Part shown: piece by piece, positions 15,245-22,576 of the stretch | Numbering within the stretch: position 1 is the stretch's first letter | How the letters are laid out: each line of letters starts with the position of its first letter | Assembly (NCBI GenBank): GCA_947447115.1 | Contig: CANFKD010000008.1 | Coordinates: 1 to 38,595 of the forward strand | From: Caulobacteraceae bacterium | Lineage (GTDB): Bacteria; Pseudomonadota; Alphaproteobacteria; Caulobacterales; Caulobacteraceae | Length of the DNA: 38,595 nt | Direction of reading: 5' to 3' | Made by a program: the position numbers and the translations under genes | The notes under the pieces: model-generated | Told to the model about the DNA's origin: nothing | What the model saw: the letters and a program-made list of their open reading frames with translations, nothing else | Databases searched by the model: none

Positions 15245-15535
15245 ATGACCGAACCTGCTTCTGCTTCGAGGCTGCAACTGATTGAAAATCTCGACCTCAA
15301 GGCCGCAGGCCCCCTGCGCTCTGAGCTCCTGTCCCTTCGTCACACGCCTTTAGACATCGATGCTTCGAATGTGCAGCGTCTCGGCGGTCTCTGCTTACAG
15401 GTCTTGATGTCCGCCCAAGCCACTTGGGCCGCCGACACCATACCCTTCGCCATTTCCTCGCCGTCCCCGGCATTTCAAGAGGCCTTGAGCCTGTTTGGTG
15501 CCGAGGATCTTCAGCCGTTCGTTCAGCAGGGCTAG
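15245..15535 (+). CDS. cheX: CheX-type small STAS-domain protein, first gene of the che operon
   Basis: A 96-residue protein with a STAS fold (anti-anti-sigma type): LQLIENLDLKAAGPLRSELLSL, then DIDASNVQRLGGLCLQVLMSA. The usual phosphorylatable Ser/Thr after the central Asp (DSSG in SpoIIAA) is replaced by LGGL, so control by phosphorylation at that site is unlikely. In the C. crescentus operon a gene called cheX occupies this place. It is unrelated to the CheX CheY-phosphatase of Thermotoga and Borrelia. AGAGGA precedes the ATG. The upstream 170 bases should contain the operon promoter; I see a short TCAT/ATGA palindrome near 15118-15131 but no confident site. No mcpA gene precedes it. Confidence 0.75.
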   Translation: MTEPASASRLQLIENLDLKAAGPLRSELLSLRHTPLDIDASNVQRLGGLCLQVLMSAQATWAADTIPFAISSPSPAFQEALSLFGAEDLQPFVQQG

Positions 15536-15539
15536 TCCA

Positions 15540-15908
15540 TTGAGCAAGATCGTTTTGACCGTTGATGACTCCCGCACCATGCGCGACATGCTGATGCTGG
15601 CTCTGGGCGATGCTGGTTTCACCGTGGTGCAGGCTGTGGACGGGGTCCATGGCCTTGAGGTTCTGGAATCCATGGCTATGCCCGATGTGATCATCACCGA
15701 TATCAATATGCCGCGTATGGATGGGTTTGGCTTTATCGAGGGGGTGCGCAAGAGCGAACGCCATCGCGCCACCCCGATCTTGGTCCTGACGACCGAAAGC
15801 GACTCGGTAAAGAAAGAGCGCGCGCGCTCAGCCGGTGCGACCGGCTGGATCGTGAAGCCCTTCAATCCTGACAAGCTAATCGACGCCGTTCGCCGCGTCG
15901 CGGCCTGA
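15540..15908 (+). CDS. cheYI: CheY response regulator (CheYI)
   Basis: A 122-residue single receiver domain. All key residues are present: acidic pair D9-D10, phosphoacceptor D54 (IITDINMPRMDG), T84/T85, and K106 in the VKPF motif. It should take phosphate from CheA and act on the flagellar motor or serve as a phosphate sink. The start is a TTG at 15540, four bases after the cheX stop, with AGCAGGG upstream; an upstream in-frame start would overlap cheX and add residues foreign to the family. Its sequence looks like the canonical CheY of this cluster. Confidence 0.9.
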   Translation: MSKIVLTVDDSRTMRDMLMLALGDAGFTVVQAVDGVHGLEVLESMAMPDVIITDINMPRMDGFGFIEGVRKSERHRATPILVLTTESDSVKKERARSAGATGWIVKPFNPDKLIDAVRRVAA

Positions 15909-18204: not shown

Positions 18205-18675
18205 ATGACCCCAATGACCACCTCCTCCTCCAACAGTGCCCTGCGTGAGTTGATCTCGTTTCAGATCGGCGCGCAGGAGTTTTGCGTCGATATCATGTCG
18301 GTGCGTGAGATCCGCGGCTGGACCCCGGCAACGCCCCTGCCCAGAACGCCTGTCTTTGTGCGCGGTGTGATCAATCTGCGCGGTGCCGTCCTGCCGATCG
18401 TTGATCTGGGCTCGCGTCTGGGTCTGCAGATGACCGAGCCGACCGAGCGGCACGTGATTATCGTGACCCGGATTGAAGAGCAGTTGGTCGGTCTGTTGGT
18501 CGATGCGGTCTGCGACATCATCACGGTACGCGACGACCAGATCCAGTCGACGCCTGATGTAGCCTCGGACCTCGTCCAACAATTCGTCAAGGGCATCCTG
18601 TCGATGGAAGGCCGGATGATCAGCCTAATCTATCTGGAGCGGGTCCTCCCCGACCGTGAGGCTGAGGCCGCATGA
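18205..18675 (+). CDS. cheW: Chemotaxis coupling protein CheW
   Basis: A 156-residue adaptor linking chemoreceptors to CheA. The single CheW domain includes [21 protein letters not shown], the [26 protein letters not shown] core and VSDVVQQF-like distal residues. The ATG at 18205 follows the cheA stop by four bases; a second ATG three codons on is also possible. Its end overlaps cheR by four bases (ATGA), so the two are probably translated together. Confidence 0.95.
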
Positions 18676-19568
18676 GCGATCAGGCAGATATTAAGCGGCC
18701 CGGCAGCGGCAGCAAAAACCTCGTAGAGGGGGAATATCCCTTTACCCAAGAGGATTTTCGCAACATCGCGGCCATGCTGCATGCCGATGCGGGGATTGCC
18801 CTGCCGGACTCCAAGGCGACCTTGGCCTATTCGCGGCTTGCAAAACGTCTGCGCGCCTTGGGCCTGAAGACATTCAAAGACTATTGCGCACTGGTCGCCA
18901 GTCAGGCCGGGGTCGAAGAGCGTCAAAAGATGCTGGCCTCGCTGACCACCAACGTTACAAGGTTCTTTCGTGAACCGCACCATTTTGACCATCTGAAGAC
19001 CAAGGTCTTGCCGGACCTGTTGGCGCAGGCCAAGCGCGGCGGACGGGTGCGGATCTGGTCGGCGGGCTGTTCGACCGGTCAAGAGCCCTATTCCATCGCC
19101 CTGACCATTCTGTCGCTGCTGCCCGATGCCGGGCGCTATGACATCAAGATCTTGGCCTCGGACATTGACCCCAATGTGGTGGCAGAAGGCAAGGCGGGTT
19201 TCTATGACGAGGAATCCTGCTCTGCTATTCCACGCGATCTGATGAAACGCTGGTTCGTGCCCAATCCTGACGATGCCTTCAAGCGTTGGGGCGTAGGTGA
19301 GGCGGCCCGCGACCTGGTCAGCTTTCGCGAGCTGAACCTGATGGGTCAGTGGCCAATGAAGGGCCCGTTCGACATCATCTTCTGCCGCAATGTGGTGATC
19401 TATTTCGAAGAAGAGACCCAAGCCCGGATCTGGAGCCGCTATGCGCCGCTGCTGAGCCCCGGGGGGCGGCTCTATATCGGCCATTCGGAGCGGGTGTCCG
19501 GGCCTGCGACGGCGCTGTTTGAGACTGATGGTTTGACGACCTACCGGCTTGTAGGGGGTAAGGCTTGA
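18672..19568 (+). CDS. cheR: Chemoreceptor methyltransferase CheR
   Basis: A 298-residue enzyme that methylates glutamates on chemoreceptors using S-adenosylmethionine, for adaptation. N-terminal helical domain to about 95 ([13 protein letters not shown]), then the methyltransferase domain with [15 protein letters not shown] as the SAM loop and [12 protein letters not shown] near the end. It overlaps cheW by four bases and cheB by four (TTGA). The receptor genes must lie elsewhere, because none is in this operon. Confidence 0.95.
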
Positions 19569-20605
19569 GCCCTGTCCGTGTCCTGATTGTCGATGATTCA
19601 GCCACCATGCGGGGGCTGATCAAGGCTGTGCTGTCGCAAGATCCCGCCATAGAGGTGATTGGAACCGCGTCCGATCCGCTTGAGGCGCGCACCGCGATCA
19701 AGTCCCTCAATCCCGACGTCATTACCCTCGATATCGAAATGCCAAACATGAACGGTTTGGAATTTCTCGAAAAGATTATGCGCCTTCGCCCCATGCCGGT
19801 GATTATGGTCTCGACCCTGACCCAACATGGCGCGGTGGCGACCCTCAAGGCCCTTGAAATTGGGGCCTTTGACTGCGTGGGTAAGCCCATGAACGGGGTT
19901 GCGGCCAAGGAGGCCTTTGCCGAGCTGGCTGATAAGGTCAAGGCCGCCGCCCGCGCCAAGATGCGCGCCTTTAGCCAAGCGGTGATCGCCAAGCCGCAGG
20001 CAGACGCCTTCAAGTCCGATGGCCGAGTTCTGGCCATTGGCTCCTCGACCGGTGGTGTTGAGGCCCTGTTGGCGGTTCTGTCGCACTTTCCGGCCAATTG
20101 CCCGCCGACCGTGATCACTCAACATATGCCCGCCAGCTTCACGGCCAGCTTTGCCGAGCGGCTCAATCGCAGCTGCGCGGCCTCGGTCTGCGAAGCCAGC
20201 GAAGGCGCGCCCTTAGAGGTTGGTCAGATCTATCTGGCCCCGGGCGGGGCTCAGCATCTGGAGGTCAGCGGCCTTGGCCAACTGCGTTGCCGTCTCAAGC
20301 CTGCTGATCTGGTCAATGGCCACCGCCCCTCGGTGGATGTGCTGTTTGAGTCCGTGGCGCGCACGGTCGGTGGTCAGTCGGTGGGTCTGATCTTGACTGG
20401 AATGGGCCGCGATGGCGCTAAGGGTCTTAAGATGATGCGCGACGCGGGGGCCTCCACCCTTGGCCAAGACGAATCGTCCAGCGTGGTCTACGGCATGCCG
20501 CGCGTGGCCTTTGAAATCGGCGCGGTAGAGCGTCAGGCGCCCTTGGAGCGCTTGGGTCCTATGGTTCTTAATCTTTGCAATCTAGACCGGCGGGAGAGGG
20601 CGTAA
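19565..20605 (+). CDS. cheB: Chemoreceptor methylesterase CheB
   Basis: A 346-residue two-domain response regulator that demethylates and deamidates receptors. Receiver domain: D10-D11, phosphoacceptor D56 ([12 protein letters not shown]) and K107. Catalytic domain: S161 (IGSSTGG), H187 (ITQHMPASF) and a later Asp in [11 protein letters not shown]. The start is a TTG overlapping the cheR stop (TTGA); the next in-frame ATG would remove half of the first strand. It overlaps cheYII by one base (TAATG). Confidence 0.95.
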
Positions 20606-20994
20606 TGCCAGCGGCCTCGGGAATTTCTGTTCTCATCGTAGACGACCAAATGACTATGCGCGCCTTGGTGCGCAATGGCTTGCAGCAGTTGGGCTTTACC
20701 GAATTTCGCGATGCCGTGGATGGTGAAGATGCGCTGCGTCAGCTCATTGCGCGGCCCAGCCATCTGGTTATATCCGACTTCAATATGCCCAAGCTGGATG
20801 GATTGGCCCTGTTGCGCGCTATCCGTGGCCATCCGCCGATTGCCAAGACTGCCTTCATCATGCTGACCGGCCGTGCAGACCGCGAGTTGGTGCAGCGCGC
20901 TGTGCAGTTCGGGGTCAATAACTATCTGGTCAAACCCTTCACCGTGACAATCCTGAAGGAAAAGATCGAAGCGGTCTTCGGGCCCCTCACATGA
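20605..20994 (+). CDS. cheYII: CheY response regulator (CheYII)
   Basis: A 129-residue single receiver with D13-D14, phosphoacceptor D58 (VISDFNMPKLDG), T88 and K110. It is the second canonical CheY of the cluster and in C. crescentus is considered a main motor-binding candidate. ATG at 20605 overlaps the cheB stop by one base, with GGGAGAGGG just upstream, and the end overlaps cheD by four bases. An earlier start inside cheB would add ten residues unrelated to the family. Confidence 0.92.
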   Translation: MPAASGISVLIVDDQMTMRALVRNGLQQLGFTEFRDAVDGEDALRQLIARPSHLVISDFNMPKLDGLALLRAIRGHPPIAKTAFIMLTGRADRELVQRAVQFGVNNYLVKPFTVTILKEKIEAVFGPLT

Positions 20995-21563
20995 GCCTCG
21001 TGTCACGCGAACAGGAGCCTCTTGCGCTGCCTGAACGACGTGTGCACGTGGTTCAGGGCGAGCACTATGTCACCGATGATGCCAGCGTCATGCTGACCAC
21101 CATCCTCGGTTCCTGCGTTGCCGCCTGTATTCGTGATCCCCTGGCCGGTCTGGGTGGAATGAACCACTTCCTGCTGCCCGGCGGGGAGGGTGAAGATGTG
21201 ACCACCGATTCTGTGCGGTACGGGGCCTATGCCATGGAGCTTCTGGTCAATGGCCTCCTGCGGCAGGGCGCGCGGCGTGAGCGCTTACAAGCCAAGCTCT
21301 TTGGCGGTGCGCGGGTCATCAGTGGCCTGACCGATATTGGCGATCAAAATGCCCGCTTCGCAGAGCGCTATCTGAAGCAGGAAGGGATCAGTTTTGCCGG
21401 CGGCAGCTTGGGCGGCGAACGGGCAAGGCGGATCCAATTCTGGCCCATTTCCGGTCGGGTCCGGCAGATGGCGCTAGCCAAGGATGAGGCCAGTGTGTTT
21501 GAAATCGAGCGGCGGACCAAGCCGTCTGCCCCGGTCGACTCCGGCGCGTTGGAGCTCTTTTGA
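20991..21563 (+). CDS. cheD: Chemoreceptor glutamine deamidase CheD
   Basis: A 190-residue enzyme that deamidates receptor glutamines to glutamates. The catalytic pair is visible: C42 in TILGSCVAACIRD and H59 in GGMNHFLLP, with the 17-residue spacing known from Thermotoga CheD. There is a full C-terminal domain. The last residues, SGALELF, form a short hydrophobic-acidic tail comparable to the end of CheU (GDVDLF). It overlaps cheYII by four bases. Confidence 0.93.
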   Translation: MSLVSREQEPLALPERRVHVVQGEHYVTDDASVMLTTILGSCVAACIRDPLAGLGGMNHFLLPGGEGEDVTTDSVRYGAYAMELLVNGLLRQGARRERLQAKLFGGARVISGLTDIGDQNARFAERYLKQEGISFAGGSLGGERARRIQFWPISGRVRQMALAKDEASVFEIERRTKPSAPVDSGALELF

Positions 21564-21565
21564 TC

Positions 21566-21961
21566 ATGACACCCTCAAGTCCCGTCCAAGCGCTCGGCTC
21601 TACGGATGGCCAGGTCTGTCTGTCCGAGGTGATTCAGACGGCTGCGCTTGAGGCCCGTGACCTTGCCGGCATGGGCAACCGGTTCCAAGGGCTGGTGGCG
21701 GAACTGATGGCATCCTCCCAAGGGGCCCATAGCGCAGAACGGATCGTTCAGGCCCAGGGTCTGGATTCCTTAATTCAGCGCCTATCGGCCCTATCGTCCT
21801 TTCTCGAAGCGCTTGGTCCGAGCCTGCCGCCCGAATGGAAGGTCAATCCGGCCCAAGCCAGTCAAAATCTAACCCTCGATCATTCCGTGCGCCGTTTTGG
21901 TCGCCGGGCCGAAGATCGTATTGCCGCGGCGACAAGGCCCGGCGATGTCGATCTGTTTTAG
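21566..21961 (+). CDS. cheU: CheU, probable CheT/CheZ-like CheY phosphatase
   Basis: A 131-residue mostly helical protein in the place of cheU in C. crescentus and of cheT (after cheD) in Sinorhizobium. I see a DxxxQ motif, D67 and Q71 in QGLDSLIQRL, inside a predicted helix. CheZ uses Asp and Gln in this spacing to remove phosphate from CheY; Sinorhizobium CheT was reported to carry the same motif. The C terminus, GDVDLF, resembles an acidic-aromatic docking tail such as that of CheZ. The phosphatase role is an inference. ATG 21566 was chosen; a TTG at 21560 overlapping the cheD stop has GGAG at better spacing and may be the true start. Confidence 0.6.
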   Translation: MTPSSPVQALGSTDGQVCLSEVIQTAALEARDLAGMGNRFQGLVAELMASSQGAHSAERIVQAQGLDSLIQRLSALSSFLEALGPSLPPEWKVNPAQASQNLTLDHSVRRFGRRAEDRIAAATRPGDVDLF

Positions 21962-21970
21962 GGGTCAAAC

Positions 21971-22576
21971 ATGGCGTCTCCCCCCACCAACCCTAAGGCC
22001 AAGATTAACCTCGAGCGGGCTACCGTTCTGTTGATGGAGGCCAGTCCTCAAGGCATGGACATTCTGGTTCAGGTGCTCAATGGATTTGGCGTGCGCACAC
22101 CGCTTCGGGCCATGTCTGGGGCGTCGGCCATGGAGATAGTCAAGAGCCATCTTCTCGACCTGATCATCGTCGATGCCCAGCTTTCAGACATGGACGGCTA
22201 TGATTTCGTAAAGTGGCTGCGGAGCTCAAAAATCGAGCCAAACTGCGCCGCGCCGGTGATTTTCATGTCCGGCCACACCCAAGTGTCGAATGTCACCAAG
22301 GGACGCGATTGCGGCGCAAGCTTCTTGGTCGCCAAGCCCATCGTGCCTCGCGTGCTTCTGGATCGGGTGATCTGGGTGGCCCGTGAAAATCGAATCTTTA
22401 TCGAGTGCCCCACCTATTCAGGCCCTGATCGCCGCTTCAAATTTGTTGGTCCGCCGCACGGGACCGAAGGGCGGCGCTCTGATGACCTGCCCCTCGAGGT
22501 GGGCACAGCCAATACACCGAACATGTCGCAAGACGCTATTGACTCATTGCTCCAGCCTCAGAAAGCACAGCTGTGA
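21971..22576 (+). CDS. cheYIII: CheYIII/CleA-like receiver with arginine-rich and FliM-like C-terminal motifs
   Basis: A 201-residue response regulator. The receiver (about 17-138) has phosphoacceptor D68 (LIIVDAQLSDMDG), S100 and K122; its first acidic pair is reduced (LLMEASPQ). It is followed by YSGPDRRFKF at 149-158 and HGTEGRR at 163-169, the same layout as in the CleD-like protein and typical of cyclic di-GMP binding Cle proteins. Near the end MSQDAIDSLLQ at 185-195 looks like the N-terminal peptide of the flagellar switch protein FliM (LSQxEIDALL), the CheY-docking site. AGGGG precedes the ATG. The name follows gene order; from memory the C. crescentus equivalent is CleA. Confidence 0.75.
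   Translation: MASPPTNPKAKINLERATVLLMEASPQGMDILVQVLNGFGVRTPLRAMSGASAMEIVKSHLLDLIIVDAQLSDMDGYDFVKWLRSSKIEPNCAAPVIFMSGHTQVSNVTKGRDCGASFLVAKPIVPRVLLDRVIWVARENRIFIECPTYSGPDRRFKFVGPPHGTEGRRSDDLPLEVGTANTPNMSQDAIDSLLQPQKAQL

Follow-up and report, generated by a model that had tools for sequence, protein, structure and literature searches.

According to the accessible text of a 2025 review (PMC12654446), CheT of Sinorhizobium meliloti has a DXXXQ motif and a CheZ-like AlphaFold model, dephosphorylates only one of the two CheY proteins and forms complexes with CheR, and CheT homologues exist in Caulobacter crescentus among others. The C. crescentus genes CC0438 (cheD), CC0439 (cheU), CC0440 (cheYIII) and CC0441 (cheE) are given in the available part of the genome paper (PMC2529317), and cheD, cheU and cheE are called 'hardly described' in the available part of a 2023 paper (PMC10579534). 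In a search of mostly open literature, no assignment of CheU to CheT by name was found, and CheU, CheT and CheY were not found together in any paper. The primary CheT paper, reportedly Agbekudzi 2024, may discuss C. crescentus CheU, and the core idea pursued here is largely already in print for CheT.

The window, which is the whole stretch of 38,595 nucleotides analysed, carries the gene order cheB-cheYII-cheD-cheU-response regulator-orfE and is termed Caulobacter-type from its gene content and order (Table 1). The open reading frame list opens the cheU frame at a TTG (21560), and the ATG at 21566 directly follows the cheD stop, in agreement with the initial annotation, which had placed cheU just after cheD. 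The start of cheYI was inferred within an open reading frame listed at 15495. In our plasmid collection the large S. meliloti record contains a whole che operon with a hypothetical protein of 124 amino acids encoded between cheD and fliF, and this protein is CheT according to NCBIfam (225.5 bits). Nine genes are collinear between the two loci, STAS-cheY1-cheA-cheW-cheR-cheB-cheY2-cheD-cheT in S. meliloti and STAS-cheYI-cheA-cheW-cheR-cheB-cheYII-cheD-cheU in the window, with identities of 71% (CheYI and CheY1), 57% (CheA), 60% (CheW), 59% (CheR), 64% (CheB), 55% (CheYII and CheY2), 53% (CheD), 42.5% (STAS) and 29% (CheU and CheT). The mention in the initial annotation of a Sinorhizobium CheT encoded after cheD, a reported phosphatase with the same motif, agrees with this order and with the accessible review text (PMC12654446). 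The loci differ downstream, where cheU is followed by a CleA-type regulator and by orfE in the cheE position, whereas S. meliloti cheT is followed by fliF. The STAS-domain-like protein that starts the collinear block (15245-15535) lies at the CheS position.

Table 1. Features of the cheU locus discussed in the text (positions are those of the window)
Feature	Position	Strand	Description	Basis or conservation
cheYI	15537..15908	+	CheY1 orthologue, possible substrate	71% identity, S. meliloti
cheR	18672..19568	+	S. meliloti CheR orthologue, possible tail partner	59% identity
cheYII	20575..20994	+	CheY2 orthologue, possible substrate	55% identity, S. meliloti
cheD	20991..21563	+	ends GALELF, CheU-like tail	
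cheU	21566..21961	+	131-amino-acid CheT-related protein	translation, gene place, HMM, hhalign, alignment
E29 codon	21650..21652	+	helix 1	72/73
Q64 codon	21755..21757	+	His in two copies away from cheD	71/73
D67 codon	21764..21766	+	candidate catalytic acid	73/73
Q71 codon	21776..21778	+	candidate catalytic amide	73/73
CheU tail GDVDLF	21941..21958	+	predicted disordered	G-[DE]-x-[DE]-x-F pattern in common with CheT

The relation of CheU to CheT was analysed with sequence profiles, using as the rhizobial CheT set the best 80 of 256 relatives from a scan of named genomes with S. meliloti CheT. A hidden Markov model built from 26 CheU sequences only matched all 80 rhizobial CheT loci among 8,151 open reading frames (E 4e-19 to 1.3e-13), and 71 of the 80 matches pass a crude test of distance to cheD. 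Comparison by hhalign of 36 CheU with 30 CheT sequences gave a probability of 98.8% (E 5e-17), the alignment beginning close to the N-terminus and extending through the final residue. The NCBIfam CheT model (NF047973) matched CheU with 24.4 bits (E 2.4e-5) and 22 of the 36 CheU sequences at E<=0.01. The equivalog cut-off of this model is 200 bits and was not reached, indicating that CheU is a divergent relative of CheT that lies outside the NF047973 equivalog as drawn. Pairwise identity is 29% over 86 residues. CheU resembles S. meliloti CheT and the NF047973 family in place after cheD, length and whole-length profile match, and both proteins have E29, Q64, D67, Q71 and a GDxxxF C-terminus; CheU thus has the whole-length homology, the place after cheD and the invariant DXXXQ of the wider CheT family. 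On the sequence evidence, homology of CheU to S. meliloti CheT is close to certain, and CheU is the divergent syntenic counterpart of CheT.

Searches with the single CheU sequence recovered the protein from all genomes of the genus (7 of 7) and, at E<=0.001, from 45 of 149 genomes of the family, the others not being proven CheU-free. Directly 3' of cheD lie 45 of the 47 places in the family; the remaining two (L094 and L095) are second copies, and the stretch fetched for them contains no cheD. These second CheU-like proteins, found in two family genomes, have His for Q64 and retain D and Q. A clear CheU relative in another genome (L082 in G170, E 1e-13) lies about 3.5 kb off cheD and does not adjoin it. 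After cheU at the six fetched loci of one genus (g20; L008-L012 and L014) there was no match to a CleA-type gene or orfE.

The initial annotation had pointed to D67-x-x-x-Q71, and D67-S-L-I-Q71 is indeed present in the translation. CheU contains 7 Asp and 10 Gln among its 131 residues, and a D...Q of this spacing occurs somewhere in 42.7% of 20,000 composition-preserving shuffles of CheU, so that the motif in one sequence is no more than chance; its conservation exceeds chance. Clustering of CheU and CheT sequences at about 90% gave 76 aligned rows, of which three were removed: L037 and L043, which are not beside a cheD and were treated as chance matches, and the truncated L081. D67 and Q71 are invariant in the 73 non-redundant sequences left, and neither residue drifts among orthologues in the way that would have counted against the motif. 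With all 76 rows kept, D and Q are each found in 75, L037 being the exception. In 26 aligned CheU sequences the invariant residues are M1, E29, Q64, D67, Q71, L73, L104 and F131.

CheU had been described as helical, and an AlphaFold2 monomer model built with 68 sequences is mostly helix (residues 19-50, 57-86 and 105-123; mean pLDDT 80.7, and 93-98 in 10-residue blocks from 61 to 90). The first two helices form a hairpin, followed by the third helix and a disordered tail. D67 and Q71 are predicted one turn apart in helix 2, together on its polar face rather than separated or buried. On the helical wheel the angles to the hydrophobic direction are 149 (D67), 171 (Q71) and 151 degrees (Q64), which indicates that none of the three belongs to the core of the CheU monomer.

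CheU as a CheZ by sequence was rejected: hhalign of 70 CheU and CheT against 15 CheZ sequences gave a probability of 0.3%. In that weak alignment the two D...Q stretches lie close, with a one-residue gap, and it was not counted as evidence. The CheZ profile PF04344 did not match CheU, nor did any other Pfam family. The interpretation in the initial annotation, a CheT/CheZ-type phosphatase, is supported: the CheT part stands by homology and synteny, and in the profile comparison (98.8%), and the CheZ part stands as residue spacing only, sequence homology to CheZ being undetected (0.3%). Both proteins have D-x-x-x-Q in helix 2 of a predicted hairpin, followed by a linker and a C-terminal peptide, the CheZ architecture being that of the available part of PMC7750401. 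On the other hand, CheU is much shorter than CheZ, without detectable sequence homology; it lacks the FQDLTGQ context and the tails QxxVDDLLxSLGF or SQxxIDALF that dock CheY, ending instead in GDVDLF. With regard to the dimeric four-helix bundle of CheZ, the CheU monomer is predicted as a hairpin, and its structure matches are generic. Acid-plus-amide dephosphorylation is common to the CheC/CheX/FliY phosphatases (available text of PMC3035606) and to the chemistry proposed for CheU; CheU differs from them in matching no Pfam family. A sequence search of solved structures with CheU returned designed coiled coils and helical chance matches and no chemotaxis phosphatase. With the CheU model, Foldseek returned helical hairpins of a generic kind, EsxA/EsxB-type ones first, with no match at E<=0.001, and VIA-align gave similar hairpin rows with Z up to 9.2, a range common for helical bundles. 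CheZ is not among the fold-search matches listed, which carries no weight either way.

The initial annotation had noted the lack of a cheZ in the operon, and no match to the CheZ profile was found in the window's own genome (84% complete) even at E<=10. Across the family CheZ is over the cut-off in 25 of 149 genomes, confined to three genera: 0 of 45 with CheU compared to 25 of 104 others. In the class-wide sample, where as a rule 11 candidates were scored per genome and absence is weak, CheZ was found among CheD-containing genomes in 0 of 6 with a CheU/CheT match and in 22 of 32 without one. The nominal Fisher p values, which ignore shared descent, are 7e-5 (family) and 0.003 (class, CheD-containing); when sub-cut-off CheZ matches in two CheU-containing family genomes (G100 and G120) are counted, the family value becomes 0.005. 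This pattern fits the replacement of one enzyme by the other.

Taken with the homology to CheT, we consider that CheU is a CheT-type phosphatase of phosphorylated CheY, with a probability of about 0.75, and probably the missing signal-termination enzyme of this locus. We infer catalysis, the dimer, the choice between CheYI and CheYII and the tail partner. The two-helix hairpin of CheU would probably pair into a four-helix bundle, on which D67 and Q71 would face the active site of phosphorylated CheY. The acid residue of E. coli CheZ is D143, and D67 would likewise form a salt bridge with the conserved receiver lysine. Q71 would position the attacking water for hydrolysis of the aspartyl phosphate, the role of Q147 in CheZ, whose acid-plus-amide chemistry is set out in the available part of PMC3035606. 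Through its flexible tail, GDVDLF, CheU would be tethered to a second chemotaxis protein, for which CheR is the likeliest candidate.

A variant compatible with this reading keeps CheU as a CheT homologue and makes phosphate-sink CheYI its main substrate, so that CheU would drain the sink rather than directly end the motor signal. The activity of CheT on only one of two CheYs, as summarized in the accessible text of PMC12654446, and the 71% identity of CheYI to CheY1, the rhizobial CheY1 being described as a phosphate sink, argue for it; that same text, however, does not name the substrate CheY. The variant deserves serious consideration, at somewhat less than even odds.

The tail that the proposed CheT-type phosphatase would use is common to CheD. 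Most CheU relatives end in G-[DE]-x-[DE]-[LF]-F, rhizobial CheT in GDFEAF or a close form, and CheD in GxLELF-like or IEFF sequences. In counts that were not de-duplicated, a terminal [DE]-x-F was found in 44 of 45 family and 83 of 83 rhizobial CheD, in 34 of 47 family and 83 of 83 rhizobial CheU/CheT, in no tail of CheR, CheB, CheYII, the CleA group, orfE, CheW or CheA, and in 9 of 2,175 other closed frames of at least 150 amino acids from the same loci. CheD also has the tail where no CheU follows (class group, which includes a few repeats of the window's own genome and of other loci: an exact terminal match in 22 of 51, and a match anywhere in the last six residues in 41 of 51). What is new here is this acidic-hydrophobic-Phe tail, common to CheD and CheU/CheT and not in the neighbouring che proteins; the literature search found no paper on it in CheD.

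The chemoreceptor pentapeptide that tethers CheR has W at position 2 and F at position 5, the remaining positions being mostly acidic (available text of PMC7390727). DFEAF of CheT retains aromatics at both positions, and the CheU and CheD tails retain F5 and the acid at 3 with L, V, I or C at position 2; the replacement of the receptor tryptophan mostly by L, V or C speaks against the likeness. One receptor of the window's own genome ends in GWEEF after a long Pro/Ala/Ser-rich stretch, and two others found do not. The tail of CheD, CheU and CheT may dock on CheR, judging from these C-termini, and such docking would account for the complex reported between CheT and CheR. It is a tentative and rather doubtful suggestion that the tail imitates the receptor pentapeptide, with deamidase, phosphatase and receptors competing for a single tethering site, which would most likely be on CheR. 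If so, signal termination and adaptation would be physically coupled, and CheT would bind CheR through its last five residues, DFEAF. The accessible text of the review (PMC12654446) names no site for the CheT-CheR contact, and the shared tail offers a concrete and cheap test of it.

The reported CheT-CheR binding and a tail common to CheD and near the receptor pentapeptide could also mean that CheU is a non-catalytic adaptor, which would bind CheR, and perhaps CheD or CheY, to tune adaptation, with D and Q kept for receiver binding. However, the phosphatase activity reported for CheT in the accessible text of PMC12654446 and the two invariant residues, at exact CheZ spacing on an exposed face, make this unlikely. 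That the D...Q motif is a coincidence in a protein unrelated to CheT, as the 43% shuffle rate and the 29% identity over only 86 residues might suggest, is contradicted by the HMM, profile-profile and NCBIfam matches and by synteny, and we give it hardly any credence.

The response regulator encoded after cheU is a CleA-type protein with an arginine-rich region. Its C-terminus, SQDAIDSLL (22526-22552), with a short helix predicted by AlphaFold2 at residues 187-193, is like the alphaproteobacterial CheZ tails SQDDIDALF and SQEDIDALL, and such a sequence also resembles the FliM N-terminus. The strict form of the pattern is found in 26 of 37 relatives. By this resemblance the CleA-type C-terminus may bind CheY, in which case the two parts of a CheZ would be divided between the adjacent genes cheU and cleA.

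Through its link to CheT, and as the CheT-type phosphatase proposed here, CheU becomes a direct candidate for terminating the signal in a group in which no CheZ exceeds the cut-off in CheU-containing genomes. Caulobacter-type bacteria are a model for motility, and D67 and Q71 are two named residues to mutate in them.
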